A stretch of 37,983 nucleotides of DNA from Candidatus Poseidoniaceae archaeon (GTDB lineage: Archaea > Thermoplasmatota > Poseidoniia > Poseidoniales > Poseidoniaceae), in assembly GCA_949538025.1 (NCBI GenBank), contig CATISI010000132.1:1-37983 (forward strand), read 5' to 3'. Of the stretch, positions 965 through 28,775 are shown one piece after another. Every line of letters begins with the position of its first letter. Position 1 is the first letter of the stretch. A program made the position numbers and the translations under genes. The notes under the pieces were generated by a model. It was given only the letters and a program-made list of their open reading frames with translations, ran no database searches and was not told where the DNA came from.

Positions 965-3900
965 ATGGCCAACAAGCCTTTCTTTGCTGTTTTGCTTTCG
1001 CTGTTGATGCTATCCGGTTGTTTCGGAGGTGGTGACTCGAATTCTGAAGTCAATGAGGAGGAACCGGTTCCAATCCCGTTCACGTTAACTGCAGAGTGGG
1101 ATAAAGAATCAATTACTGGTGAAGTTGGTGAAATTGCAAATCTAAACATCCTTCTTGAGACGACAGGAGTAGGCGACTACTCTACGGAGGCAAAGATGAC
1201 ACACTCTGGCGAGACTGTAAGCCAGTCTGATTACAGTATAACCAAGAAGACAACAAGTATTTCTGTCGTTTTGCTACCAAACGAACCTGGAATATACAAT
1301 ATCGATGTCACGATTGTACCAACAGAGGGAGATGTGATCAGCATGACGAATACAATCGAAATCCTTCTTCCCGATGAAGGAACCACATCGATGGTCGCAC
1401 CACAATTTCTTGTCGTTGAGGCTTCAATGCTTGTTCTAGAAGGCCAAGTTTTGCATGAAGCGTTGGAATCCTGTACAGCCATGGTTGAAATCGATGAAGA
1501 AGATTTTTCGGTGACAAGTAGCGCATTGCCTCTACAAGATGACGGTACCTTTTCGTATATTTTGACGGATCTTGACTTGCGTACTGAATCTTTTGTCGTC
1601 CGAACAAGTGCAGTATGTGGAGAATACACGCGCACTGGAGATTCGAAAAACATCAGCATCATCGTAGAAGAAAACAACGATGCCGATGGGGATGGAATCC
1701 AAGATGATGTCGATTTCTGCCCAGATGGTTATGGTGAATCGGACGGATGGGCATCGAATACTCAAAGCGATGCTGATCAAGATGGTTGCAGAGATTTCGA
1801 TGAGGACTTGGATGATGATAATGATGGAATCCATGATGCCAATGATGGTTGTACATCGAGCATTGGTTGGACAAGCACGCTACAGAACGACCGTGATCAA
1901 GATGGTTGCCATGATGACACCAACGATAACGACGATGATGGCGACGGTATACTTGACCTCAGTGATGCCTGCCAAGATGGGGAAATTAATTGGCCAGCGA
2001 ATCTCTACAACGACTGGGATCAAGATGGTTGCAACGATCTTCTTGAGGATTCAGATGATGATAACGATGGTGAACTTGATGCAACAGATGCGTGCCCAAA
2101 AGGTCGCTCAAATTGGGAATTAGAGCGAACAATGAACACGGATTTTGACATGGACGGTTGTTATGATGCAACTGAAGACATTGATGATGATAACGACAAT
2201 GTCAACGATGTTAACGCAACAGGAGCAGTATTGGATTTGTGCCCAACAACGCCAATTAATGCAACGGACGTTGATGAATATGGGTGCGCAGCCATCGAAC
2301 GTGACACGGACGGAGATGGCGTCAACGATTTTATCGATGCATGTGAAGGCACACCGAGCGGACTAACTGTGAACACAGTGGGTTGTGCTGACCTCGATGG
2401 TGATGGCGTGTTTGCCAACGTCGACAGCTGTGCAGATAGTCCAACAAGGTGGACCATCGATTCAGATGGTTGTGCCATCGTGCAAAAGCCAGTTCAATGG
2501 ACAGCAGGGACTTCTGTAAATGGCCCGATGGACATTGTCCCCACCTTCACAGTTCCAACACTCAATGGTACGTATACATTCCAGAATAAGTGGACTGGGA
2601 ACGATGTCTATTTGTTCATGTTCAAGTATACAGACGGCAGTGGAAACTCGAATTCTGGGACCTGGTCAACCAATCCTGGTACATTTATTCGTAATTTGCC
2701 TGACAACACCCACCTGTTCTTCGGCTCATTTGATTCAAGTTACCACAATGATATACTCTCGCGGAAGAGTGATGTTGAAGCACGACTCAACCCAAGTGAA
2801 GAAGAACAATGGGATGGCCGAATTCACTACATCGATATGGATGCGAGTAACATTCAAGGCGGCTTAGGTCAAATGATATCCAACTTTAACAGTCCTTTCT
2901 TCATGGGAATCGATCGCTTCCAACGTGCACGCGACACTGGCTCAATTTATGCATGGGTTTCACAAACGAATGATCCACTCCACTACACATATGAACCACA
3001 TCAATGGAACGCTGAATTTGAACCAGAAATTCGAATGCAAGATTCTGGCATTGATGTTGTTACCCTCTACGATTTCGATCGACATGCGGGTGGGTGGGGA
3101 GCCAATCACAATTCGTACAGAAACGCTACATTCACATTACCTGAGAACCTCTCGTCCTATGACACACTCGAAGTGTTTCATGAACATGCCTGTGATGAGA
3201 GAGCAAATAGGTATCAGAAGAGCGATGGTAGTTACGGAGGATGTCATGAATGGGATTACCTCGCTCATCTCTACATTTGTGACGCAGACAATTCCTCGGT
3301 TTGTGGAACTGAATTCATGCGGTGGATTACAACCTACGGACGCGAAGGTCGGTGGCTGACTGACATTAGCCCGTACCTGTTCATGCTTGAAGATGAACAA
3401 GAGCGAAGATTCAGATACAAAGGTGCAAACAAAGGAGACCTTACCATCAAATTCCTGTTTTCAAATTGGGGAAGTGGTGAGCGAGCATTTGATGCCGAGT
3501 TTGGCTTCACTGGCGGACAATTCGATGGAACCTACAACAATGAGAGTCGATATGTTCGGAGCCTGAATTTTACTGTTCCAAGTGAAACAACTCGAGTCGA
3601 AATTGTTGCAACCATCACGGGTCATGGTTTCCAAAAGGACGATGCAAATTGCGCTGAGTTCTGCGACCATCAACATCACTACTACATGGATTCACACCAC
3701 ACCTATGAGTGGCATCCAATCGTTTATTCAAGCACAGGTTGCGAGAACGAAGTTAGCAATGGAGTGGTTGCCAATCAATTCGGATCATGGCCGTTTGGAA
3801 GAGCAGGATGGTGTGCTGGTCAAGATGTCAAACAATGGAGTTTCGATATCACTTCATGGGTTGATATGAATGGCCAAAACAACGAATTGACCTATCGAGG

Positions 3901-4006
3901 TCTCTTCAACGGGCAAGAGTACAACCCAACTGGTGAATCGAGCAAAGGAGGACGAAACATCGTCGCTGAGATATGGGTCGTGTTTTACACCAACTCAACG
4001 GCTTGA
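965..4006 (+). CDS. Predicted secreted lipoprotein: thrombospondin type 3-like Ca-binding repeats plus a C-terminal PNGase F-like (peptide-N-glycosidase) domain
   Basis: Lipobox-like N-terminus (LLSLLMLSGCFGGG). Tandem DxDxDGxxDxxD/C repeats. The C-terminal half has motifs typical of PNGase F-like proteins (GGCHEWDYLAHLYIC, FMRWITTYGREGRWLTDISPYL, ITGHGF...CAEFCDHQHHYY, GVVANQFGSWPFGRAGWCAGQDVKQWSFDITSW, YRGLFNGQEYNPT). Confidence 0.8.
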   Translation: MANKPFFAVLLSLLMLSGCFGGGDSNSEVNEEEPVPIPFTLTAEWDKESITGEVGEIANLNILLETTGVGDYSTEAKMTHSGETVSQSDYSITKKTTSISVVLLPNEPGIYNIDVTIVPTEGDVISMTNTIEILLPDEGTTSMVAPQFLVVEASMLVLEGQVLHEALESCTAMVEIDEEDFSVTSSALPLQDDGTFSYILTDLDLRTESFVVRTSAVCGEYTRTGDSKNISIIVEENNDADGDGIQDDVDFCPDGYGESDGWASNTQSDADQDGCRDFDEDLDDDNDGIHDANDGCTSSIGWTSTLQNDRDQDGCHDDTNDNDDDGDGILDLSDACQDGEINWPANLYNDWDQDGCNDLLEDSDDDNDGELDATDACPKGRSNWELERTMNTDFDMDGCYDATEDIDDDNDNVNDVNATGAVLDLCPTTPINATDVDEYGCAAIERDTDGDGVNDFIDACEGTPSGLTVNTVGCADLDGDGVFANVDSCADSPTRWTIDSDGCAIVQKPVQWTAGTSVNGPMDIVPTFTVPTLNGTYTFQNKWTGNDVYLFMFKYTDGSGNSNSGTWSTNPGTFIRNLPDNTHLFFGSFDSSYHNDILSRKSDVEARLNPSEEEQWDGRIHYIDMDASNIQGGLGQMISNFNSPFFMGIDRFQRARDTGSIYAWVSQTNDPLHYTYEPHQWNAEFEPEIRMQDSGIDVVTLYDFDRHAGGWGANHNSYRNATFTLPENLSSYDTLEVFHEHACDERANRYQKSDGSYGGCHEWDYLAHLYICDADNSSVCGTEFMRWITTYGREGRWLTDISPYLFMLEDEQERRFRYKGANKGDLTIKFLFSNWGSGERAFDAEFGFTGGQFDGTYNNESRYVRSLNFTVPSETTRVEIVATITGHGFQKDDANCAEFCDHQHHYYMDSHHTYEWHPIVYSSTGCENEVSNGVVANQFGSWPFGRAGWCAGQDVKQWSFDITSWVDMNGQNNELTYRGLFNGQEYNPTGESSKGGRNIVAEIWVVFYTNSTA
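1681..2500 (+). repeat. Tandem ~40-41 aa (about 120-126 nt) thrombospondin type 3-like repeats inside the PNGase F-like lipoprotein gene
   Basis: GATCAAGATGGTTGC occurs at 1775, 1895 and 2018 (spacing 120 and 123 nt), with a diverged copy (GACATGGACGGTTG) near 2147. Protein unit is roughly DxDQDGCxDxxEDxDDDNDGxxDxxDxC. Confidence 0.8.
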
Positions 4007-5169
4007 CGTGGTGGTTGACTGATCGTATCAGGTGCGTCGGCAAGTGCATCTGGTGTTGGAAGCAAATCATAGTCACTGTTTCTTCGTTTTGGAATGAATC
4101 CTGCACGTTGAATCGAAAGTTGAAGTTCGTATTCTGTTGCGCTGAATTTAGTCGTACCCGAGGCGGAAACAACGTTCTCTTCCATCATGGTTGATCCCGC
4201 ATCATCAGCACCTGCGAGTAGGGCCATCTGTGCAATACCCATACCCATCGTTGGCCAAGATGCTTGAATGTGATCTACATTGTCCAAAAACAATCGAGCA
4301 ATTGCCACATGACGCAAATATTCCGTTGAACCAGCTCCACGTTCAAACTTGTTTTGGCCACGATTTCTTTTGCCGAATGTATTCGCTTCCAACTGTACTG
4401 GCCATGCGATAAACGATGTGAATCCAGGTAGACCTAGTGAAAGGATATTTTCTTGCTGTTCTCGGATTCGATGCAGGTGTTGAACACGGTCTGCGTTGGA
4501 CTCACCAAAACCAATGACATTGGTTGCACTTGTTGTCAATCCAAGCAGTTGGGCTTCTTTCATGACCCTCAACCAATTGTCAGGGTGCCCCTTTTTTGGA
4601 GAAACATCCTTCCGTACAGACTCAACAAGCATCTCAGCGCCACCTCCAGGTAGTCCATGCATACCAGCATCCTTGAGATGTTCCAATACAGCCTGTGTGG
4701 ACAATTGAGTTACTTCGGCAATTCCCTCAATTTCGATAGGGGAAAAGCAATCCAAATCAATCGTTGGATGGCGTTCTCGCAATGCTTTGATCAGTTCGAT
4801 GTACCAATCAAAATCAAGGGCGGGGTTCACGCCTCCTTGCATCAATATGCGAGAACCTCCAATTGCCTCCAATTCATGTATGCGATTATGAATTTCCTCG
4901 TAGGATTGAGTGTACGTTTCCTCATGACCGGGTGGCCTGTAGAAGGAACAAAATTGGCAGTTAATTGTGCAGACATTGGTGTAATTGATGTTTCGATCAA
5001 CGAGGTAGGTAACTTCATTTGAGGGGTTATGTAAACACCTTCGATGATGAGCAGCTGCCATCAACTGGTGAAGAGGAGCATCATTGTAGAGTTCAATACT
5101 TTCTTCCACCGTCAACCGGAACGCTTCCTTCGAAGAAACAATCCGTTGCAGCGTCTCTTGCCAAGCCAT
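3985..5169 (-). CDS. mqnC: Radical SAM protein of the MqnC/CofH group, most like cyclic dehypoxanthinyl futalosine synthase
   Basis: CxxxCxxC motif in NYTNVCTINCQFCSFYRPPG; ILMQGGVNP; FSPIEIEGIA; LPGGGAEMLVESVR; QASWPTMGMGIAQMALLAGADDAGSTMMEENVVSASG. Confidence 0.75.
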   Translation of the reverse strand: MAWQETLQRIVSSKEAFRLTVEESIELYNDAPLHQLMAAAHHRRCLHNPSNEVTYLVDRNINYTNVCTINCQFCSFYRPPGHEETYTQSYEEIHNRIHELEAIGGSRILMQGGVNPALDFDWYIELIKALRERHPTIDLDCFSPIEIEGIAEVTQLSTQAVLEHLKDAGMHGLPGGGAEMLVESVRKDVSPKKGHPDNWLRVMKEAQLLGLTTSATNVIGFGESNADRVQHLHRIREQQENILSLGLPGFTSFIAWPVQLEANTFGKRNRGQNKFERGAGSTEYLRHVAIARLFLDNVDHIQASWPTMGMGIAQMALLAGADDAGSTMMEENVVSASGTTKFSATEYELQLSIQRAGFIPKRRNSDYDLLPTPDALADAPDTISQPPRQAVELV

Positions 5170-5178
5170 GAGGCCACC

Positions 5179-6555
5179 TCAAATGCTTCCAACAATTCGT
5201 TCAATATCAGCAATTGTTTTTGGACACGAAATGGTAAGGACATCAGGATCACCATTCGTGACGAGGACATCATCTTCGATGCGAATCCCGATGTTTGCAT
5301 ATCGCTCCGGACAATCGACATCAGGACGCCATGCTCCAAAATATAGTCCGGGTTCTACGGTCAGGACCATTCCCTCTTCAAGCAAACGAGGAGTCCCATC
5401 TGGCTTGTAGGTGCCCACATCGTGTACATCTAGGCCAAGCCAGTGTCCCGTATTGTGCATGTACCACTTGCGTAGTTCACCAGTCTCACCATCAAGTGCT
5501 TCATCCAGCGTTTGAGTAATAACTCCAAGACGAATCAATCCTTCAGCCAGTGCTTTTCGAGCAACTTCGTGTGGCATGTTGTATGGGTTACCTACTCGAC
5601 AAGCGTCGATGGCTTTCTCCTGAGCATCCAGAACGATTTCATAAATTTCCTTTTGTGCATCTGAGAAGGTTCCCCCAATAGGCCAGGAGCGCGTAATATC
5701 AGCTGCGTAACCTTGGTACTCCGCACCAGCATCAATCAGAATAATTTCATCAGATTGGCATGGTGAATTATTGACAGTGTAATGGAGAATCGTTGCATTT
5801 TCACCGCATCCTACGATGGATGGGTAAGCCCAACCACTTGTACCTCCGTAAACGAAGAATCCCTCAATAATGGACTGGATTTGAAATTCATGTATGCCGT
5901 CTTTGCTCGCTGCCATTGCCAATTCGTGTGCTTTCGACGAAACTTCTGCAGCATAACGCATTTGTTGAATCTCCTCTTTGGATTTACGCAAACGCATCTC
6001 AGCAATGCGACGGCTGGGATCTTCGACACTAATTGGACCGGAGCCAAAGTGCTGGCGCTTTCGATCACGCTTCTCAACGGCAGCCATCACGATTGAATCG
6101 ATGCGAGAGTCAATACCTGGGCGAACGTGTACACGGACCGAGGACTCGAGAAGGTGTTCTAGATGTGAGCACATGTCATGAGATGAATCGGCGCGATCGA
6201 TTGGCCAATTCCTCAATGCACCTTCTGTGCCTGGACGTCGCCCTTCCCAAATTTCCATCAATGTATCTTTAGGCTGAACAAAAAGATGAGAAATCCATTT
6301 TCCATCATCATGATAAAACATCAACGTTGCTTCAGGATCGGTCCAACCACACATGTACATCATGTCGCTTGAAGATCGGTAAGGATAATGCACATCGTTG
6401 CTCCTCGTTGCTTCTTGTAGAGAGGAGATGATGATTAGATCATCAACATCGTGTTGGGAAAGCAAACGAGATTGTCGTTCCCGATAAACTTCCTTCGACA
6501 GAGTCGGTGGTTTCTCCGGCAACGTCCCGTAAGCCTCGTCGAACATTGTGCTCAT
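5179..6555 (-). CDS. pepP: Xaa-Pro aminopeptidase / M24-family metallopeptidase
   Basis: M24 signature: ILIDAGAEYQGYAADITRSWPIGGTFSDAQKEIYEIVLDAQ, HNTGHWLGLDVHDVG, GMVLTVEPGLYF, IGIRIEDDVLVT. Confidence 0.88.
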   Translation of the reverse strand: MSTMFDEAYGTLPEKPPTLSKEVYRERQSRLLSQHDVDDLIIISSLQEATRSNDVHYPYRSSSDMMYMCGWTDPEATLMFYHDDGKWISHLFVQPKDTLMEIWEGRRPGTEGALRNWPIDRADSSHDMCSHLEHLLESSVRVHVRPGIDSRIDSIVMAAVEKRDRKRQHFGSGPISVEDPSRRIAEMRLRKSKEEIQQMRYAAEVSSKAHELAMAASKDGIHEFQIQSIIEGFFVYGGTSGWAYPSIVGCGENATILHYTVNNSPCQSDEIILIDAGAEYQGYAADITRSWPIGGTFSDAQKEIYEIVLDAQEKAIDACRVGNPYNMPHEVARKALAEGLIRLGVITQTLDEALDGETGELRKWYMHNTGHWLGLDVHDVGTYKPDGTPRLLEEGMVLTVEPGLYFGAWRPDVDCPERYANIGIRIEDDVLVTNGDPDVLTISCPKTIADIERIVGSI

Positions 6556-21776: not shown

Positions 21777-24239
21777 ATGGGAACGCCTCGACTTCCAGAA
21801 AAAAGATGGTCAATCGACCTCGAAAAGAGCATACAGGAACAACACTACGCCGATGAAAGCGCGTATCAACAACGATATGGTTTCAAGCCAAAAAGCGGGA
21901 AACCAATTTTTGTGATTGATACACCACCTCCATACCCCTCAGGAACGTGGCATATTGGTGCTGTTGCTCAATATTCCATGATTGATGTCCTAGCGCGTTC
22001 ACAGCGGTTGCTGGGTAAGGAAGTCTATTTCCCCTGGGGCGTGGACCGAAATGGAATCAATATTGAATTCACCGTCGAAAAGAACACAAAGCGAAAGATG
22101 AAGACCTACGACAGAGAAGAGTTTCTCAACCTATGTCGTGAAACCATTGAGACGTTCACCCAAGCCATGCGAAAAACAGCTGCTCGTGTTGGATTATCCT
22201 GCGATTTCGCCGCCGAGTATCTCACCGACGCTTCTGATTACCGATCGGTAACCCAATCAATTTTCATTGAATTGTTCAAAAAAGGAGACATCGTCGAAGA
22301 TTTGAGACCAAACATCTACGACCCTGTGGAAGGAACCACGATTGCCGATGCTGAAGTAGAGCGAATTGGTCGAATGACAAAGTTGGTCGACGTTCGTTGG
22401 AAGACCGAAGATGGTGAAGACCTCATCATCTCGACAACTCGGCCGGAATTGATTTGTGCATGTGGCGTCGTTGTTGTCCATCCCGATGACCAGCGTTATC
22501 AACATCTTATTGGAAAGAAGGCCATTCTTCCAATGCCGGTAACCGGACGTGAACAATCCGTTGAAATTCAGACACACCCCTCGGTTAAGTCCGAATTCGG
22601 AAGTGGAATTTTGATGGTTTGTTCGTTTGGTGATCAAAACGACGTTGCAGTCTTCAGAGAACTTGGCCTAGCGCCGTTCCAAGCAATAGATTTGAACGGA
22701 TGCATGACCTCAATCTCGGGACCGCTAGAAGGATTATCGGTTCTTGATGCCCGAGCAAAAGCGATTGAGATGTTGGAAATACAGGATAACATCGATGCTA
22801 TTGAGGAGCGACAGCAGGAAGTCCCCGTTTCAGAACGAGGAAAGAATCCTGTGGAGATTATCCTTCTGAAAGAATGGTACGTTCGCCAAACACACATGCA
22901 AGAAAAGATGCTCGACTTGATAGAACAGATTGAATTCCATCCACCACGTAACCGACAATTCTTACTGGATTGGATGGACAACATCAGCATCGATTGGCCA
23001 ATATCACGACGACGATGGTACCATACTGAGATTCCAATTTGGTATAGCGAAAACGAGGATTGCATCATCGTTCCACCTGCTGGAACCTATGTACAGCCAT
23101 GGAAAGACGCACCACCAGAAGGATCAAGAGTGTTACAACGAGATACACGAGAAGACATTGGATCTTACTCCGAACTCAAGGAGCAGATGGGACACATCCG
23201 TGGCGAAGAGAAGGTATTCGACACATGGATGGATTCTTCCAACTCCAATCTATTCGTCAGCGGCTATCTCAACCAACCTGACGTTTTCGAGAAGGCGTTC
23301 CCGACAGCATTGCGTCCACAAGGAAAAGAGATTGTCCGTACGTGGTTGTATTACACCCTGCTCAAATCCGCACTGCTGCTCGAACAGCCTGGCTTCAAAC
23401 ACGTGTGGATTGATGGATTGGGGATGGACCCTTGGGGCAGAAAGATGTCGAAATCGCTCGGAAATGGAATCGATGCTGATAGTGTCCTCGAATGTGGCGC
23501 TGGAGGACGAACAGGTTCATGGAAGGTCCGAGGACCTGATGGGTCGGTCAGTCTCAAAGCAAACAAAATTGGTAGCGAATGTTTTCGACTCTGGAAGGCA
23601 TGTGAAGCTCAAGTTGGAGATGATTTCCACATCAACCCAGAAGAGATTGAATCGAAGTACTTTGGTGTACTAACGAAAATATTCAACGTCGCCCGATTTG
23701 CCAGCCAGTTTGATTGTCCAGATGAAGAACCACCTGCACCATATCCGATTGAGGATCGTTGGATTCAGTCCGAATTTGCAACCATGATGGCAATCGTTCG
23801 AACGTCTTGGGAAAACCTCGACATATACACTGCCACTCAGGCTCTTAAGACATTTGGAACAGGGATTTTGCCTTCACATTGGCTTGAAATGGCAAAATCT
23901 CGATTGTACGACGGAGATGAACATGCTGCTTGGACCATTCACAACATTTTACGTGACTTCCTCGCTGCATTCAGCCCAATTTGTCCCTTCTTTTGTCATC
24001 ACATTTCGATGACGCTCTACAAAACAAGCGCAGTTGATGTTGATTCCTTCCCAAACCTACCGCCTGTCGATGAGGATTTGAATGCCAAAACTTCAGACAT
24101 TGAATCGTTCAACAGTGAAGTTTGGAAAACGAAGAAGGAAAATGGCTTGTCATTGAATGCTGAAATTGAAGGCATCGCAATACCAGACAACCTCAAAGGG
24201 TTCAAGGACACCCTCACTCGGATGCACAAATTACTCTGA
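21777..24239 (+). CDS. valS: Valyl-tRNA synthetase
   Basis: Class I motif TPPPYPSGTWHIGAVAQYSMIDVLARSQRLLGKEVYFPWGVDRNGINIE; TTRPELICACGVVVVHPDDQRY; FGSGILMVCSFGDQNDV; KMSKSLGN. The ORF track starts at TTG 21675; ATG 21777 (MGTPRLPEKRWSIDL) is preferred. Confidence 0.85.
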   Translation: MGTPRLPEKRWSIDLEKSIQEQHYADESAYQQRYGFKPKSGKPIFVIDTPPPYPSGTWHIGAVAQYSMIDVLARSQRLLGKEVYFPWGVDRNGINIEFTVEKNTKRKMKTYDREEFLNLCRETIETFTQAMRKTAARVGLSCDFAAEYLTDASDYRSVTQSIFIELFKKGDIVEDLRPNIYDPVEGTTIADAEVERIGRMTKLVDVRWKTEDGEDLIISTTRPELICACGVVVVHPDDQRYQHLIGKKAILPMPVTGREQSVEIQTHPSVKSEFGSGILMVCSFGDQNDVAVFRELGLAPFQAIDLNGCMTSISGPLEGLSVLDARAKAIEMLEIQDNIDAIEERQQEVPVSERGKNPVEIILLKEWYVRQTHMQEKMLDLIEQIEFHPPRNRQFLLDWMDNISIDWPISRRRWYHTEIPIWYSENEDCIIVPPAGTYVQPWKDAPPEGSRVLQRDTREDIGSYSELKEQMGHIRGEEKVFDTWMDSSNSNLFVSGYLNQPDVFEKAFPTALRPQGKEIVRTWLYYTLLKSALLLEQPGFKHVWIDGLGMDPWGRKMSKSLGNGIDADSVLECGAGGRTGSWKVRGPDGSVSLKANKIGSECFRLWKACEAQVGDDFHINPEEIESKYFGVLTKIFNVARFASQFDCPDEEPPAPYPIEDRWIQSEFATMMAIVRTSWENLDIYTATQALKTFGTGILPSHWLEMAKSRLYDGDEHAAWTIHNILRDFLAAFSPICPFFCHHISMTLYKTSAVDVDSFPNLPPVDEDLNAKTSDIESFNSEVWKTKKENGLSLNAEIEGIAIPDNLKGFKDTLTRMHKLL

Positions 24240-25379
24240 TTCATCAATAAGGTCAAGCGTGGTTTGACGGAAGTCCATTTCTTCGAGTTGACCCAGTCGG
24301 AAACCAATCAGACGAATTTTTTCATCCTGGTGAACGTTTTCTGCAAACAGTCTGCGAACTTGTCTCAGAAACACCTCCGTATCATCCATGGCAACAGGTA
24401 TCGAACGACCGTGCGTGTGTGTTTCAAAGCCAGTGTATCGGATTTTGACTTCTGCAAGGCGACCCGCAATTCCCTCAGTTCGTGCTTTTTCCAACACAGT
24501 CTGCGTCAATTGTTCAAGAAGATGAAGTACATGCTCATGATCACTTTGATCGCTGGAAAATGTTCGTTCCTTACCAATCGAGCGGCGAGATCTTAGAGGA
24601 CTGACATCGTTGGATGTCAAACCCTCAACCACCCTTAACAACCAAGAAGCAAATCGGCGAGATGTCATTCTGGCAAGAGCGAGCTCACCCAATCCAACCG
24701 CCTCGTCCATGGTTGTCACACCCCACTCTGCAAGAACGTTCGCAGTTTTCGGGCCAATACCAGGTACTTCTCTTACAGATCGAGCATCAAAGAACTCCGA
24801 TACCTCGTCTGGCAGAACTCGATGAATACCGTTTGGTTTGTTCACTTCGGAGGACATCTTTGCGATGATTCGTGTTGGCCCAATTCCAAAAGAAGCGGTC
24901 AGACCCACTTTCTCATGAATCGATCTTTGGAGTCTTCGTGCAAGAGCCATCGCTTCATCCCAATCGTGCTTGACAATCTCAGTGACATCGAGATAAGCTT
25001 CATCGATGCTCGCCTGTTCGAATTTGTCTGAATTTTGCCTCAGAATCTTCATGACCCGTCGAGAAGCCATCGAATACAACGACCGAGTACCCCGAATGAA
25101 TCGTGCAGGGCCAAAAGGGTGACCTGGACATCGGCGCCATGCTTCAGAAATCGGCATCGCAGACCGAACGCCGTATTGTCTTGCAGCATAGTTGCATGTT
25201 GAAACAATACCTCGTCCACGACCTTGCATCGGATCCGAACCAATGATCAACGGTTCATCCTCAGGAAAGCCATGGTGAAGAATTTCGACTGATGCAAAAA
25301 ATGCATCAAGGTCGCAATGGATGATGATTCGCTCCTCACGCACACATCGACACACTTGTCGGCAGTGTTTGAAATTCAT
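24231..25379 (-). CDS. dinB: Y-family DNA polymerase IV
   Basis: RIIIHCDLDAFFASVEI, FEQASIDEAYLDVTE, GIGPTRIIAKMSSEVNKPNGIHRV, VPGIGPKTANVLAEWGV: catalytic carboxylate motifs intact. The exact start is uncertain (GTG codons also lie just downstream of the ATG). Confidence 0.92.
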   Translation of the reverse strand: MNFKHCRQVCRCVREERIIIHCDLDAFFASVEILHHGFPEDEPLIIGSDPMQGRGRGIVSTCNYAARQYGVRSAMPISEAWRRCPGHPFGPARFIRGTRSLYSMASRRVMKILRQNSDKFEQASIDEAYLDVTEIVKHDWDEAMALARRLQRSIHEKVGLTASFGIGPTRIIAKMSSEVNKPNGIHRVLPDEVSEFFDARSVREVPGIGPKTANVLAEWGVTTMDEAVGLGELALARMTSRRFASWLLRVVEGLTSNDVSPLRSRRSIGKERTFSSDQSDHEHVLHLLEQLTQTVLEKARTEGIAGRLAEVKIRYTGFETHTHGRSIPVAMDDTEVFLRQVRRLFAENVHQDEKIRLIGFRLGQLEEMDFRQTTLDLIDESE

Positions 25380-25452
25380 CCTTCACTTTTCCATTACTCT
25401 CTGCAAAAACACTGAGGTTTGATTTCGGTGATTGGCAATACTTGGTGAGACA

Positions 25453-26289
25453 ATGCATCCAGTAGAACGACAACCTAGTGAATTGCGCATTCCTTCGACA
25501 GGCATCACCCTGCTTGAGGGACCGGGATACTTTGGACAAGACGGGCGGTTACTTGCCCAACATTGGACGAGCATTCTTCTTTCAAAAGGACATGCTGTGC
25601 ATTGGATAGATGGAGGCCATCGATTTGATCCAAGCAGATTTTTTTCATCCATGCGTTCACTCGATTGTCCTATCGAAGACGGTTTACGTCGATTGTATAT
25701 TGGACGAGGATTCACCTTGCATCAACTGCATGCACTGATTCAAAGAGTTCGACATGAGGTTGCATTAACACAGGCATCGATGATTGTTGTTGATAGTATG
25801 CTTACAATGTTTCTTGATGAGCAAATCAAACGATTTGAAGCACGTTCCATTCTACGCCATTGCATGGCCTCGCTTGAAGAAGTTTCTCGATACTGTCCAA
25901 TTGTTCTTCTTGATGGAAAGGCGATGTCGCCCTTGCATCAACAACTCAAGCATACGATGCGACCTTATGTTCACCATCGGTTGAGAGGAACATGGGGCGA
26001 CCGAGAGAAAACAACACTTCGACTCGCAAGTTCCACAGGCATCTACGACGTGGCGATGAAACAACCGAGTCATGCAATAGCTCAACAGCAATTGAATCAT
26101 TTCACATCCATTGATCCAACCGAACAACTGGCGGCTCAAGCAATTGCTCTTCCGACCATCCAAACGGAGCGAGAACCGACCATATTGCACGCACAGCAAG
26201 CCGACGATAATAATCAACATCAGTGCGCCGAACTGGGTGGTCCTGATGTTCACATTCCCGTGCAAGAACGACACGCTGCAATGGATTGA
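25453..26289 (+). CDS. RecA/RadA-like fold protein with degenerate Walker A (candidate ImuA-like accessory factor)
   Basis: RecA-type architecture: ITLLEGPGYFGQDGRLLAQHWTSILLSKGHAVHWIDGGHRFDPSRF (Walker A region and the 'ID..RFDP' strand), then SMIVVDSMLTMFLDEQIKRFEARSILRHCMASLEEVSRYCPIVLLDG (Walker B region). The ORF track starts at TTG 25432; ATG 25453 is preferred. Confidence 0.6.
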   Translation: MHPVERQPSELRIPSTGITLLEGPGYFGQDGRLLAQHWTSILLSKGHAVHWIDGGHRFDPSRFFSSMRSLDCPIEDGLRRLYIGRGFTLHQLHALIQRVRHEVALTQASMIVVDSMLTMFLDEQIKRFEARSILRHCMASLEEVSRYCPIVLLDGKAMSPLHQQLKHTMRPYVHHRLRGTWGDREKTTLRLASSTGIYDVAMKQPSHAIAQQQLNHFTSIDPTEQLAAQAIALPTIQTEREPTILHAQQADDNNQHQCAELGGPDVHIPVQERHAAMD

Positions 26290-28495
26290 CGGCATCTTGT
26301 GTACACACAACAAAACGTACCTTTGAAGCTAATTCCAAAGGATAACCCAGCGATTCTGAGCGCTGATAAGCCAACATGGCTACGGTTTGTGAGGAATTCT
26401 TGGAAGGCCTTCGAGAAATTCGTTGAGCAATGAGCAAATCCTTTGCGCGCACCTGATGGTGTTCGAGACGTTGCACTTCGTCGAGGAGAAGTCGTTGAAT
26501 TTGGCACTGTACACGATAACTTGGAATGTTGTCAATCAAATCATCGGTATCCGCCAACAACTCCAACGCTCGCGTCTGCAGTTGAGCAACCCAAGGACAC
26601 GTCGAATGTTGCCGCAACTCAAGGCCCCGAATCTTCATTCCCTTCTCGCCATATGCCCAGTACTTCGTTAGTGAACCACCGCTGTGCATCCGACTTGGAA
26701 GAAAGGCAATGCACCGATACGTTGCTTCGTATTCGAGAGGAATGCCCGTCATTTTATGCACATGATTCGAGAGATCCATCGCAGATTGATGCTGCTCTTC
26801 GAGAGAGCGACCCTCACGATCACGGATCCAGATGGAATCAACAATGGCATGCAACACTTCCCAGCCACGTTGTTGAGCACAATCGATGGTCTGCAGGAGA
26901 AGTTCACGAGCCCAGGCGCATATGGCTTCGTGTGCTTCAATACGACCAAAACGAGCGTTTCGATATCCTGTGTAACCAAAGCACGTGACAAGAAGCCATT
27001 TGAGAGCATTCTGCTGACGATCGGCGGCATCGCCTTTGGCGACAATTTGTTGCTTAAGCTGACGACGACGTTCGATGAGAGGTGCAACGACTCGACCGAG
27101 AAAGCCGTGCCTTCGACCACATGTATGCGTCATCAATTCAGGGACCTGAAACGCATTTGAACATTGTTGAGGAAAAGCAAGACTTGCTGATTTCCATTGC
27201 TGCTGTTGCAATTGAAACCGCTTTTTGGCTTCATCAGGGTGGAGAGGTAGGGGCATGGTGTTCTTCGCCGGTTGACAACAACTGCAATTCAAGGTCTCAG
27301 GAGAGATGTTACGCGTTGCAATGATGCTAGGAAAGAGGCTTGCAAAATCGAGTTCGATGACGTTGGCATAGACGCCAGGTCGGCTATCCAAATAGAGCCC
27401 TCCCCGGTCGGATTGCAGCAAATCCCATGCTGACTTGGTGTCTTCAGGACGCGTCTTTTTCCACGGAACAAGCACACCATCTTCCATCGCTACTCGGTAT
27501 TGTATTGCACTGATGACCGAGCCCGGAGATTTTCTCGATGCATCACTGATTCGTGTAGCGGAAACACGCGCAAGTTCGTACAGTCCATCGAGTCCCCCTT
27601 CACGGAACATGAAACTTGACGAAAGATCGATATGAATACGACCTTCGAGTGGGAACTGAGGGTCGCTTCGTAACACCTGCCCATAGGACGAAAGAACTCT
27701 CGTTTGACCAACTTGTCTCAGAGGGGTTTGGTTTCGTCCAAGACTAAGCGCTGTATGTTTGGCTTCAACATACCGCAACAGATGTGGAAGCCCTTCGGTA
27801 TTGCCACGTAACGACAGCACAAGATCAGGGTCGTACTCTCCAAACCACTGCTCCAATTGTTGCAGAGATCTAGATTGCTGAAGAGAAAACGCAACTTGTG
27901 GGCCCGTGACGTTGCCAGAAGTATCGCACGGTGTAACGAGAACACGCGTTGGCTGGCGGCACAGTGTTCCATCTTGACCAATCTGCTCGAGAACAATTTC
28001 AAGTCGACAACAACGCCAGTCGCGTCGATGAACGTCTCTTTCCAAGAGCGAGAGGTAGTTGTTTTCAAGGCGCACGGGTGAACCAATGGTCAATCGTTTA
28101 GAGGTGAGATACTGCTGTTCAGCTCGGATATCTACAGAATAAAGGTTGTATCGAACATGCTCGCCACGCGCATCGATGTGTTCAGCGAGGGCGCGTAACG
28201 TCGCGCACGATTCGAGCGTAAGTGCGAGCATACGTTTCGTATCGAAGGAACCCAATTCGGGTCGTTTTTTCTCAAACGCGTAACGTTGCAGACCGTATCG
28301 AATCCAGAGTTCTGGCTGCGACAACCACTCGATGAGATGCTCGAGATCTGATGAACTTCCGGCGACATGAAGTGTAGGATGCCAAGGCTCGCGAAATGAA
28401 ACAACGGAACCCTCCTCAGTCACAATCCATACCAGCATTTCGAGTTGCGCTGAGCAGAGATGGGCGTCTAAAATCCAGCCACTAATGCTGGTCAT
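26102..28495 (-). CDS. Divergent B-family DNA polymerase (PolB2-like), probable proofreading-deficient
   Basis: Motif A ELDFASLFPSIIATRNISPETL; motif B region QQNALKWLLVTCFGYTGYRNARFGRIEAHEAICAWARELL; motif C region LHAIVDSIWI; thumb KGMKIRGLELRQHSTCPWVAQLQ; C-terminal DYYRRLAVRAIWSVLAPFGW. N-terminal exonuclease motifs not recognisable. Confidence 0.85.
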   Translation of the reverse strand: MTSISGWILDAHLCSAQLEMLVWIVTEEGSVVSFREPWHPTLHVAGSSSDLEHLIEWLSQPELWIRYGLQRYAFEKKRPELGSFDTKRMLALTLESCATLRALAEHIDARGEHVRYNLYSVDIRAEQQYLTSKRLTIGSPVRLENNYLSLLERDVHRRDWRCCRLEIVLEQIGQDGTLCRQPTRVLVTPCDTSGNVTGPQVAFSLQQSRSLQQLEQWFGEYDPDLVLSLRGNTEGLPHLLRYVEAKHTALSLGRNQTPLRQVGQTRVLSSYGQVLRSDPQFPLEGRIHIDLSSSFMFREGGLDGLYELARVSATRISDASRKSPGSVISAIQYRVAMEDGVLVPWKKTRPEDTKSAWDLLQSDRGGLYLDSRPGVYANVIELDFASLFPSIIATRNISPETLNCSCCQPAKNTMPLPLHPDEAKKRFQLQQQQWKSASLAFPQQCSNAFQVPELMTHTCGRRHGFLGRVVAPLIERRRQLKQQIVAKGDAADRQQNALKWLLVTCFGYTGYRNARFGRIEAHEAICAWARELLLQTIDCAQQRGWEVLHAIVDSIWIRDREGRSLEEQHQSAMDLSNHVHKMTGIPLEYEATYRCIAFLPSRMHSGGSLTKYWAYGEKGMKIRGLELRQHSTCPWVAQLQTRALELLADTDDLIDNIPSYRVQCQIQRLLLDEVQRLEHHQVRAKDLLIAQRISRRPSKNSSQTVAMLAYQRSESLGYPLELASKVRFVVCTQDAVNPLQRVVLARECEHQDHPVRRTDVDYYRRLAVRAIWSVLAPFGWSEEQLLEPPVVRLDQWM

Positions 28496-28775
28496 GATTC
28501 ACTCCATCCAAAGATAAGATGTGTTGTTGAAGAGACACAATACGTTCTTCAAGCGCTTGAATTCGTTCATGAGCGCCAAGAATCATCGACAAAAGCATCG
28601 GCCTCCACGCCTCGTGCGCAGGAAGCATCCCTCCTGCTGCTCGACGCATGCGAACATCATGGAGCATCGCATCAAAACGACAGCGATCCTCATGCGATAG
28701 TGCACGCCGGTACGGTACGAGAATTTCGATCTCTTGTTCAACGCGTCCTCGCCAAGTTGGTACAGTTCGTCCCAT
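28482..28775 (-). CDS. Small conserved-looking helical/coiled-coil protein, overlapping the polB start
   Basis: 97 aa: MGRTVPTWRGRVEQEIEILVPYRRALSHEDRCRFDAMLHDVRMRRAAGGMLPAHEAWRPMLLSMILGAHERIQALEERIVSLQQHILSLDG. 14-nt overlap with the downstream polB start. Resembles, from memory, small haloarchaeal proteins starting MGRTxPTYRD. Confidence 0.6.
   Translation of the reverse strand: MGRTVPTWRGRVEQEIEILVPYRRALSHEDRCRFDAMLHDVRMRRAAGGMLPAHEAWRPMLLSMILGAHERIQALEERIVSLQQHILSLDGVNHDQH

Follow-up and report, generated by a model that had tools for sequence, protein, structure and literature searches.

The protein encoded at 25453–26289 on the forward strand of the window, which is the whole 37,983-nucleotide stretch of a Candidatus Poseidoniaceae contig (CATISI010000132.1) analyzed here, is very probably the ATPase-dead iRadA scaffold of a Poseidoniales PolB2 translesion mutasome, a complex that would be tethered to PCNA and in which a DinB inserter would hand over to a PolB2 extender; the iRadA gene has most simply been inverted once. 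The basis for this reading is a RadA-core fold that has lost both the catalytic Glu and a working P-loop, purifying selection on the protein, linkage and co-occurrence with the partner genes, signatures in these partners, and a PCNA-box-like motif. In the mutasome model of Timinskas (2025), as set out in the main text of PMC11791011, PolB2 acts with PPB2 and with iRadA, a RadA that lacks the N-terminal domain and whose ATPase site is inactivated; the gene association had been analyzed earlier by Makarova and colleagues (2014, PMC4104785). The features of the locus are as follows, with the evidence in brackets.

24231–25343, reverse strand: Y-family polymerase DinB (Pol IV), transcribed divergently from iRadA, with a probable leaderless GTG start at 25343 and a PIP-like tail, RQTTLDLI (searches and alignment)
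25344–25452, no strand: divergent dinB–iRadA intergenic region with a conserved TATA-like TTCAAA 30 bp before dinB (alignment)
25453–26289, forward strand: iRadA, putative scaffold of the PolB2 mutasome, a RadA ATPase-core fold that lacks the N-terminal domain and has lost the ATPase (searches, AlphaFold, Foldseek, dN/dS)
25519–25542, forward strand: degenerate Walker A, GPGYFGQD, with the ancestral loop length kept (codons and ortholog alignment)
25615–25617, forward strand: Gly at the position of the RadA catalytic Glu, WIDGG against YIDTE in the RadA of the same genome (ortholog alignment)
25777–25812, forward strand: Walker B-like SMIVVDSMLTMF, its Asp retained in the window's family (ortholog alignment)
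26083–26103, forward strand: PCNA-binding (PIP) box-like QQQLNHF at the functional C-terminus of iRadA (motif count against shuffled tails)
26102–26289, both strands: 188-nt antisense overlap between the 3′ ends of iRadA and PolB2 (locus comparison)
26102–28495, reverse strand: PolB2-type B-family polymerase with motif A LDFASLFPSII, motif C AIVDS and the DRGG loop (searches and alignment)
28482–28775, reverse strand: PPB2 (arCOG07300-like), 97 aa, with N-terminal MGRT and Arg9 (alignment)

Elsewhere in the window, 965–4006 on the forward strand encodes a 1013-aa archaeal protein in which Pfam detects a peptide-N-glycosidase F C-terminal domain (E = 1.8e-20).

Polymerase partners and gene order

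The window locus has in common with the PolB2 mutasomes of archaea and some bacteria all three components and their defining signatures (PMC4104785; main text of PMC11791011), those of PolB2 and PPB2 being as Timinskas and colleagues describe them in that main text. Motif A of the polymerase is intact, and motif C reads Ile-Val-Asp, the first Asp of DxD being lost; Ile-Val-Asp and the DRGG loop are each present in 40/40 aligned Poseidoniales PolB2 proteins. PPB2 begins with MGRTVPTWR (Arg at positions 3 and 9), and MGR[T/S] is likewise found in all 40 aligned Poseidoniales PPB2 proteins. A tblastn search with the window's polymerase recovered canonical trios on haloarchaeal plasmids, ordered iRadA–PPB2–PolB2 and carrying MGRT, IVD and DRGG. 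Among 98 genomes (that of the window and 97 relatives), strong matches to iRadA occur in 47 and to PolB2 in 46, the only difference between the two sets being a genome in which the contig breaks off within iRadA. The iRadA of canonical haloarchaeal operons matches the profile of Poseidoniales iRadA (hhalign probability 97.8, E = 8.6e-13); on this match and on its gene partners, the protein is counted among the archaeal iRadA proteins that belong to PolB2 mutasomes.

The earlier note had likened the protein to mycobacterial ImuA′, and as an analogy this holds, in that an inactive RecA-family protein is tied to a polymerase. Kinship does not, given the haloarchaeal iRadA match and the neighbors DinB, PolB2 and PPB2, with no linked ImuB or DnaE2 gene found at the locus. 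In bacterial ImuA′–ImuB–DnaE2 and Pol V (UmuC–UmuD′2–RecA), a RecA-family protein likewise serves an error-prone polymerase rather than recombination, but these systems employ a C- or Y-family polymerase and a bacterial RecA lineage, and they are analogous as systems, not homologous.

The known mutasome and the window locus differ in gene order. The single orientation that is typical of the trio, found 'in most cases' according to the main text of PMC11791011 and not strictly defining, is absent from the window, where PPB2 leads PolB2 and iRadA is inverted, convergent with PolB2 and overlapping it at the 3′ end. Of 20 loci in the remaining families of the phylum, 18 yielded the complete trio, on one strand in 18/18, in the order iRadA–PPB2–PolB2 in 17 and PPB2–PolB2–iRadA in 1. 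At every Poseidoniales locus with both genes, by contrast, iRadA lies downstream of PolB2 on the other strand and the two genes converge; the 3′ overlap spans 14–219 nt in most loci other than that of the window. Given that the PolB2 proteins of Poseidoniales form one clade (SH-aLRT 100), a single inversion of iRadA in the Poseidoniales ancestor would be the simplest account. A matching locus, at 85% protein identity, is present on contig CALDQY010000189.1 of an 'uncultured Rhodobiaceae bacterium' MAG, apparently a Poseidoniales contig binned or titled wrongly.

The dinB neighbor and the clamp motif

A second departure from the known mutasome is the usual position of the cassette right beside dinB in the window's family; dinB is not among the neighbor enrichments given in the main text of PMC11791011 (orc1/cdc6, lexA, SRAP and DUF72). 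Immediately divergent dinB and iRadA genes are present in 33/35 sampled genomes of this family holding both, and in a second, more mixed sample dinB falls inside the stretch in 9/17, several of the others being short contigs. None of the 20 loci examined in the phylum's other families has dinB nearby, and the second Poseidoniales family has the cassette with no detectable dinB, so DinB is not obligatory for it. Fifteen sampled genomes of the window's family have dinB without PolB2, and some cassettes are located elsewhere. Genomes of the family that lack the cassette show the order tRNA-ligase-like gene, dinB and PGDH, and because dinB there stands directly beside PGDH, it looks like the older resident. 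The adjacency may thus stem from a single insertion of the cassette into an old dinB–PGDH neighborhood. The linkage may be partly accidental, owing to where the cassette lies.

Losses are seen as well. In one member of the genus (G007; L120, ~5040–5180), a recent deletion has taken out iRadA and PolB2, with a fragment of PPB2 surviving beside dinB, and in another genus degraded PPB2 remnants are all that is left (L121, 1689–2279; L122, 8336–8665). The cassette is therefore dispensable, and its genes are lost together, with dinB remaining.

The intergenic region contains a TATA-like TTCAAACAC at 25365–25373, exactly 30 bp ahead of the GTG at which dinB probably starts without a leader (25343); its spacing is equal in many relatives, and it can resemble a conserved N-terminal peptide. 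Such a peptide (N-F-K-H), considered as a mutasome-binding tag of DinB, was rejected, as stops interrupt it in several genomes and some of its carriers have no PolB2; the stretch that would encode it is better read as the TATA-like box before a leaderless start.

PolB2 (Dpo2) of Sulfolobus is an extender of mispaired ends (PMC8764526), and abasic sites are bypassed sequentially in this organism, by the Y-family Dpo4 and then by Dpo2 (PMC8721586). Sulfolobus likewise combines a Y-family polymerase with an Ile-x-Asp PolB2 in one organism (PMC8721586, PMC8764526), whereas in the window's family the two polymerase genes are adjacent. Given this hand-over from a Y-family inserter to a PolB2 extender, the dinB linkage is consistent with a bypass unit of two polymerases. 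A stronger version, rated as rather unlikely, would make DinB and PolB2–PPB2–iRadA of the window's family one co-regulated bypass machine on PCNA, its assembly gated by ATP binding without hydrolysis wherever GK[S/T] and the Walker B Asp are kept.

The C-terminal tail of iRadA carries QxxLxx[FWY] in 10/15 rows of the window's genus (0.5 expected from shuffling), in 8/12 of the second Poseidoniales family (0.2 expected) and in 14/17 of other Thermoplasmatota (0.4 expected). Outside its genus, the window's family has the box in iRadA in only 5/30 rows and often at the C-terminus of PolB2 instead (QPSLLEF, QVSLLEF). According to the main text of PMC11791011, a clamp-binding motif is present in iRadA or PolB2 of many mutasomes, though not all, and 'shuttles' between the two proteins; the switching of the box within the window's family is read from the alignments as this same 'shuttling' motif. 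The overlap of iRadA and PolB2 places the C-terminal clamp-motif regions of both in or beside sequence that is read on both strands.

The RadA core and its ATPase site

The open reading frame of iRadA extends from 25432 to 26289 on the forward strand and opens with TTG, but the likely start is ATG 25453, which gives a product of 278 aa, on account of a preceding GGTGAG-like ribosome site that is shared by most of the genus. Beyond ~26112, the protein continues as a lineage-specific extension antisense to PolB2. On its own, the sequence matches weakly, with the RadA and RadB models scoring best and all far below cut-off (Pfam Rad51, E = 0.002, short of the curated threshold; NCBIfam RadA, E = 0.0009). 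A profile of 38 iRadA orthologs matches RadA at E = 2.8e-8, and an AlphaFold model built with the same orthologs (mean pLDDT 83 over 241 residues) shows the RadA core without the N-terminal helical domain, the first core strand starting at residue 18. Its top Foldseek matches are ATPase-domain structures of P. furiosus RadA (E ~1e-8, probability 1.00). Together with dN/dS, these results make membership in the RecA/RadA superfamily, as claimed in the earlier note from the letters of the DNA, more than chance, and the structural comparison places the protein inside the RadA fold. The degenerate GPGYFGQD loop on which that claim was centered is confirmed at 25519–25542 (GGA CCG GGA TAC TTT GGA CAA GAC), and the fold elements said to flank it, HAVHWIDGGHRFDPSRF and the Walker B-like segment at 25777–25812, are both present.

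Those weak matches to RadA and RadB models are what would recommend a free-standing recombination mediator of the RadA/RadB type that stands near polymerase genes by chance, but such a role is very improbable, since iRadA shares the presence and absence pattern of PolB2 and is linked to it in the relatives sampled, its profile matches the haloarchaeal iRadA of canonical PolB2 operons, and a separate canonical RadA, with GAFGSGKT, DTE (YIDTE) and YIDTEDTFRPER, is encoded on another contig of the same genome. The adaptor rather than recombinase role proposed earlier is supported, as far as a role can be deduced from membership in the PolB2 mutasome.

The earlier note had tied the loss of ATPase activity to the replacement of the Walker A Lys and Ser/Thr by Gln and Asp. 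The loss itself stands, on a missing catalytic Glu rather than on these two changes: the Glu of the RadA DTE motif is lost in 47/47 iRadA orthologs (DTE to DGx, with a small residue in its place), and judged by the alignment, the diagnostic inactivation is the change from Glu to Gly at 25615–25617, a point absent from that note. As for the loop, only the second of the two replacements is fixed, the Ser/Thr position being Asp or Glu in all 22 rows of the genus, window included. Lys is kept in 21/21 other members of the genus and Gln occurs only in the window's genome, so Lys-to-Gln is rejected as a family-defining change and reads in the alignment as a late, local step private to this genome. 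Orthologs with an intact GK[S/T], which had been named as evidence against the idea, do exist in part, being found in 10/32 rows of the window's family outside the genus and in 0/22 within it, and these could still bind nucleotide. The remaining rows outside the genus vary, even within one genus (GAS, GRS, GRR, GGR, GKA, GKL and others).

The P-loop of the window's family is less decayed than that of haloarchaeal iRadA, which has eroded in its own distinct way, or that of other Thermoplasmatota. In the latter and in the second Poseidoniales family, most loops are three residues shorter and most members lack the Walker B Asp. Only the window's family keeps both the full-length loop and this Asp, yet it groups with a family that has neither. 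The PolB2 tree joins the two Poseidoniales families (SH-aLRT 100) and rejects a clade of the second family with other Thermoplasmatota (AU p = 0.0008), and the least-decayed P-loop therefore lies inside a group of decayed ones; the iRadA tree alone is compatible with one short-loop clade (AU p = 0.21). Regain of the loop in the window's family was considered, given that the second family and other Thermoplasmatota share the shorter loop while the PolB2 tree places the two Poseidoniales families together. Since the Walker B Asp is also kept, retention in the window's family, with independent decay elsewhere, is the preferred reading of these sequences.

In this family, which alone keeps the ancestral loop length and the Walker B Asp and has 10/32 consensus GK[S/T] loops outside the genus, iRadA could be a nucleotide-gated switch, with bound but unhydrolysed ATP controlling assembly or release of the mutasome. 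Such a switch is nonetheless very unlikely, as GK[S/T] is missing from the whole genus, the window's genome has lost the Lys as well, and P-loop residues differ freely among close relatives, a pattern suggestive of relaxed constraint.

The protein as a whole is maintained despite its degenerate P-loop, as follows from a dN/dS of 0.08–0.15, measured where synonymous sites are unsaturated, and from the concentration of substitutions at third codon positions in 8/8 relatives compared. A decaying pseudogene, whose P-loop erodes because the whole gene is dispensable, could be suspected from the wide variation of Walker A (GKD, GKE, GQD, GKS, GAS, GRR, GGR) and from the cassette losses in G007 and in the genus with PPB2 scraps, but it is contradicted by this selection signal, by a core without internal stops and by the invariant residues H50, W51, D53, G54, P60, R85, T88, Q91, R98, M119 and D122, and is hardly credible.

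A working model and its meaning

With the scaffold reading preferred, the interactions of iRadA, its binding to the clamp and the hand-over from DinB may be pictured as follows. iRadA would form no ATP-driven filaments, and the surface through which RadA protomers contact each other would serve instead as a fixed dock for the PolB2 loop that precedes the DRGG motif. The N-terminal arm of PPB2 would be wedged between iRadA and PolB2, locking the pair, and the QQQLNHF tail of iRadA would tether the complex to PCNA. DinB would insert opposite the lesion, after which the PolB2 complex would extend the mispaired end; inserter and extender would thus be encoded at one locus in the window's lineage.

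The iRadA family and the PolB2 mutasome themselves are already described. The inversion of iRadA, its linkage to dinB and the gradation of the P-loops are not, as far as the literature searched shows, with PMC11791011 covered in its main text: it yielded no paper on a Poseidoniales PolB2/DinB locus and no biochemical study of the iRadA subunit of a mutasome.

PolB2 mutasomes are known so far from genomes, genetics and models, and the graded P-loops within one family, from an intact GKS to GQD, offer a handle on whether nucleotide binding matters. The rearranged cassette separates the expression of iRadA from that of PolB2 and PPB2, and the natural linkage of a Y-family inserter to a PolB2 extender matches the two-polymerase bypass reported for the Sulfolobus proteins. 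Given that Poseidoniales are abundant archaea of the surface ocean, exposed to sunlight, their DNA damage tolerance is ecologically interesting.
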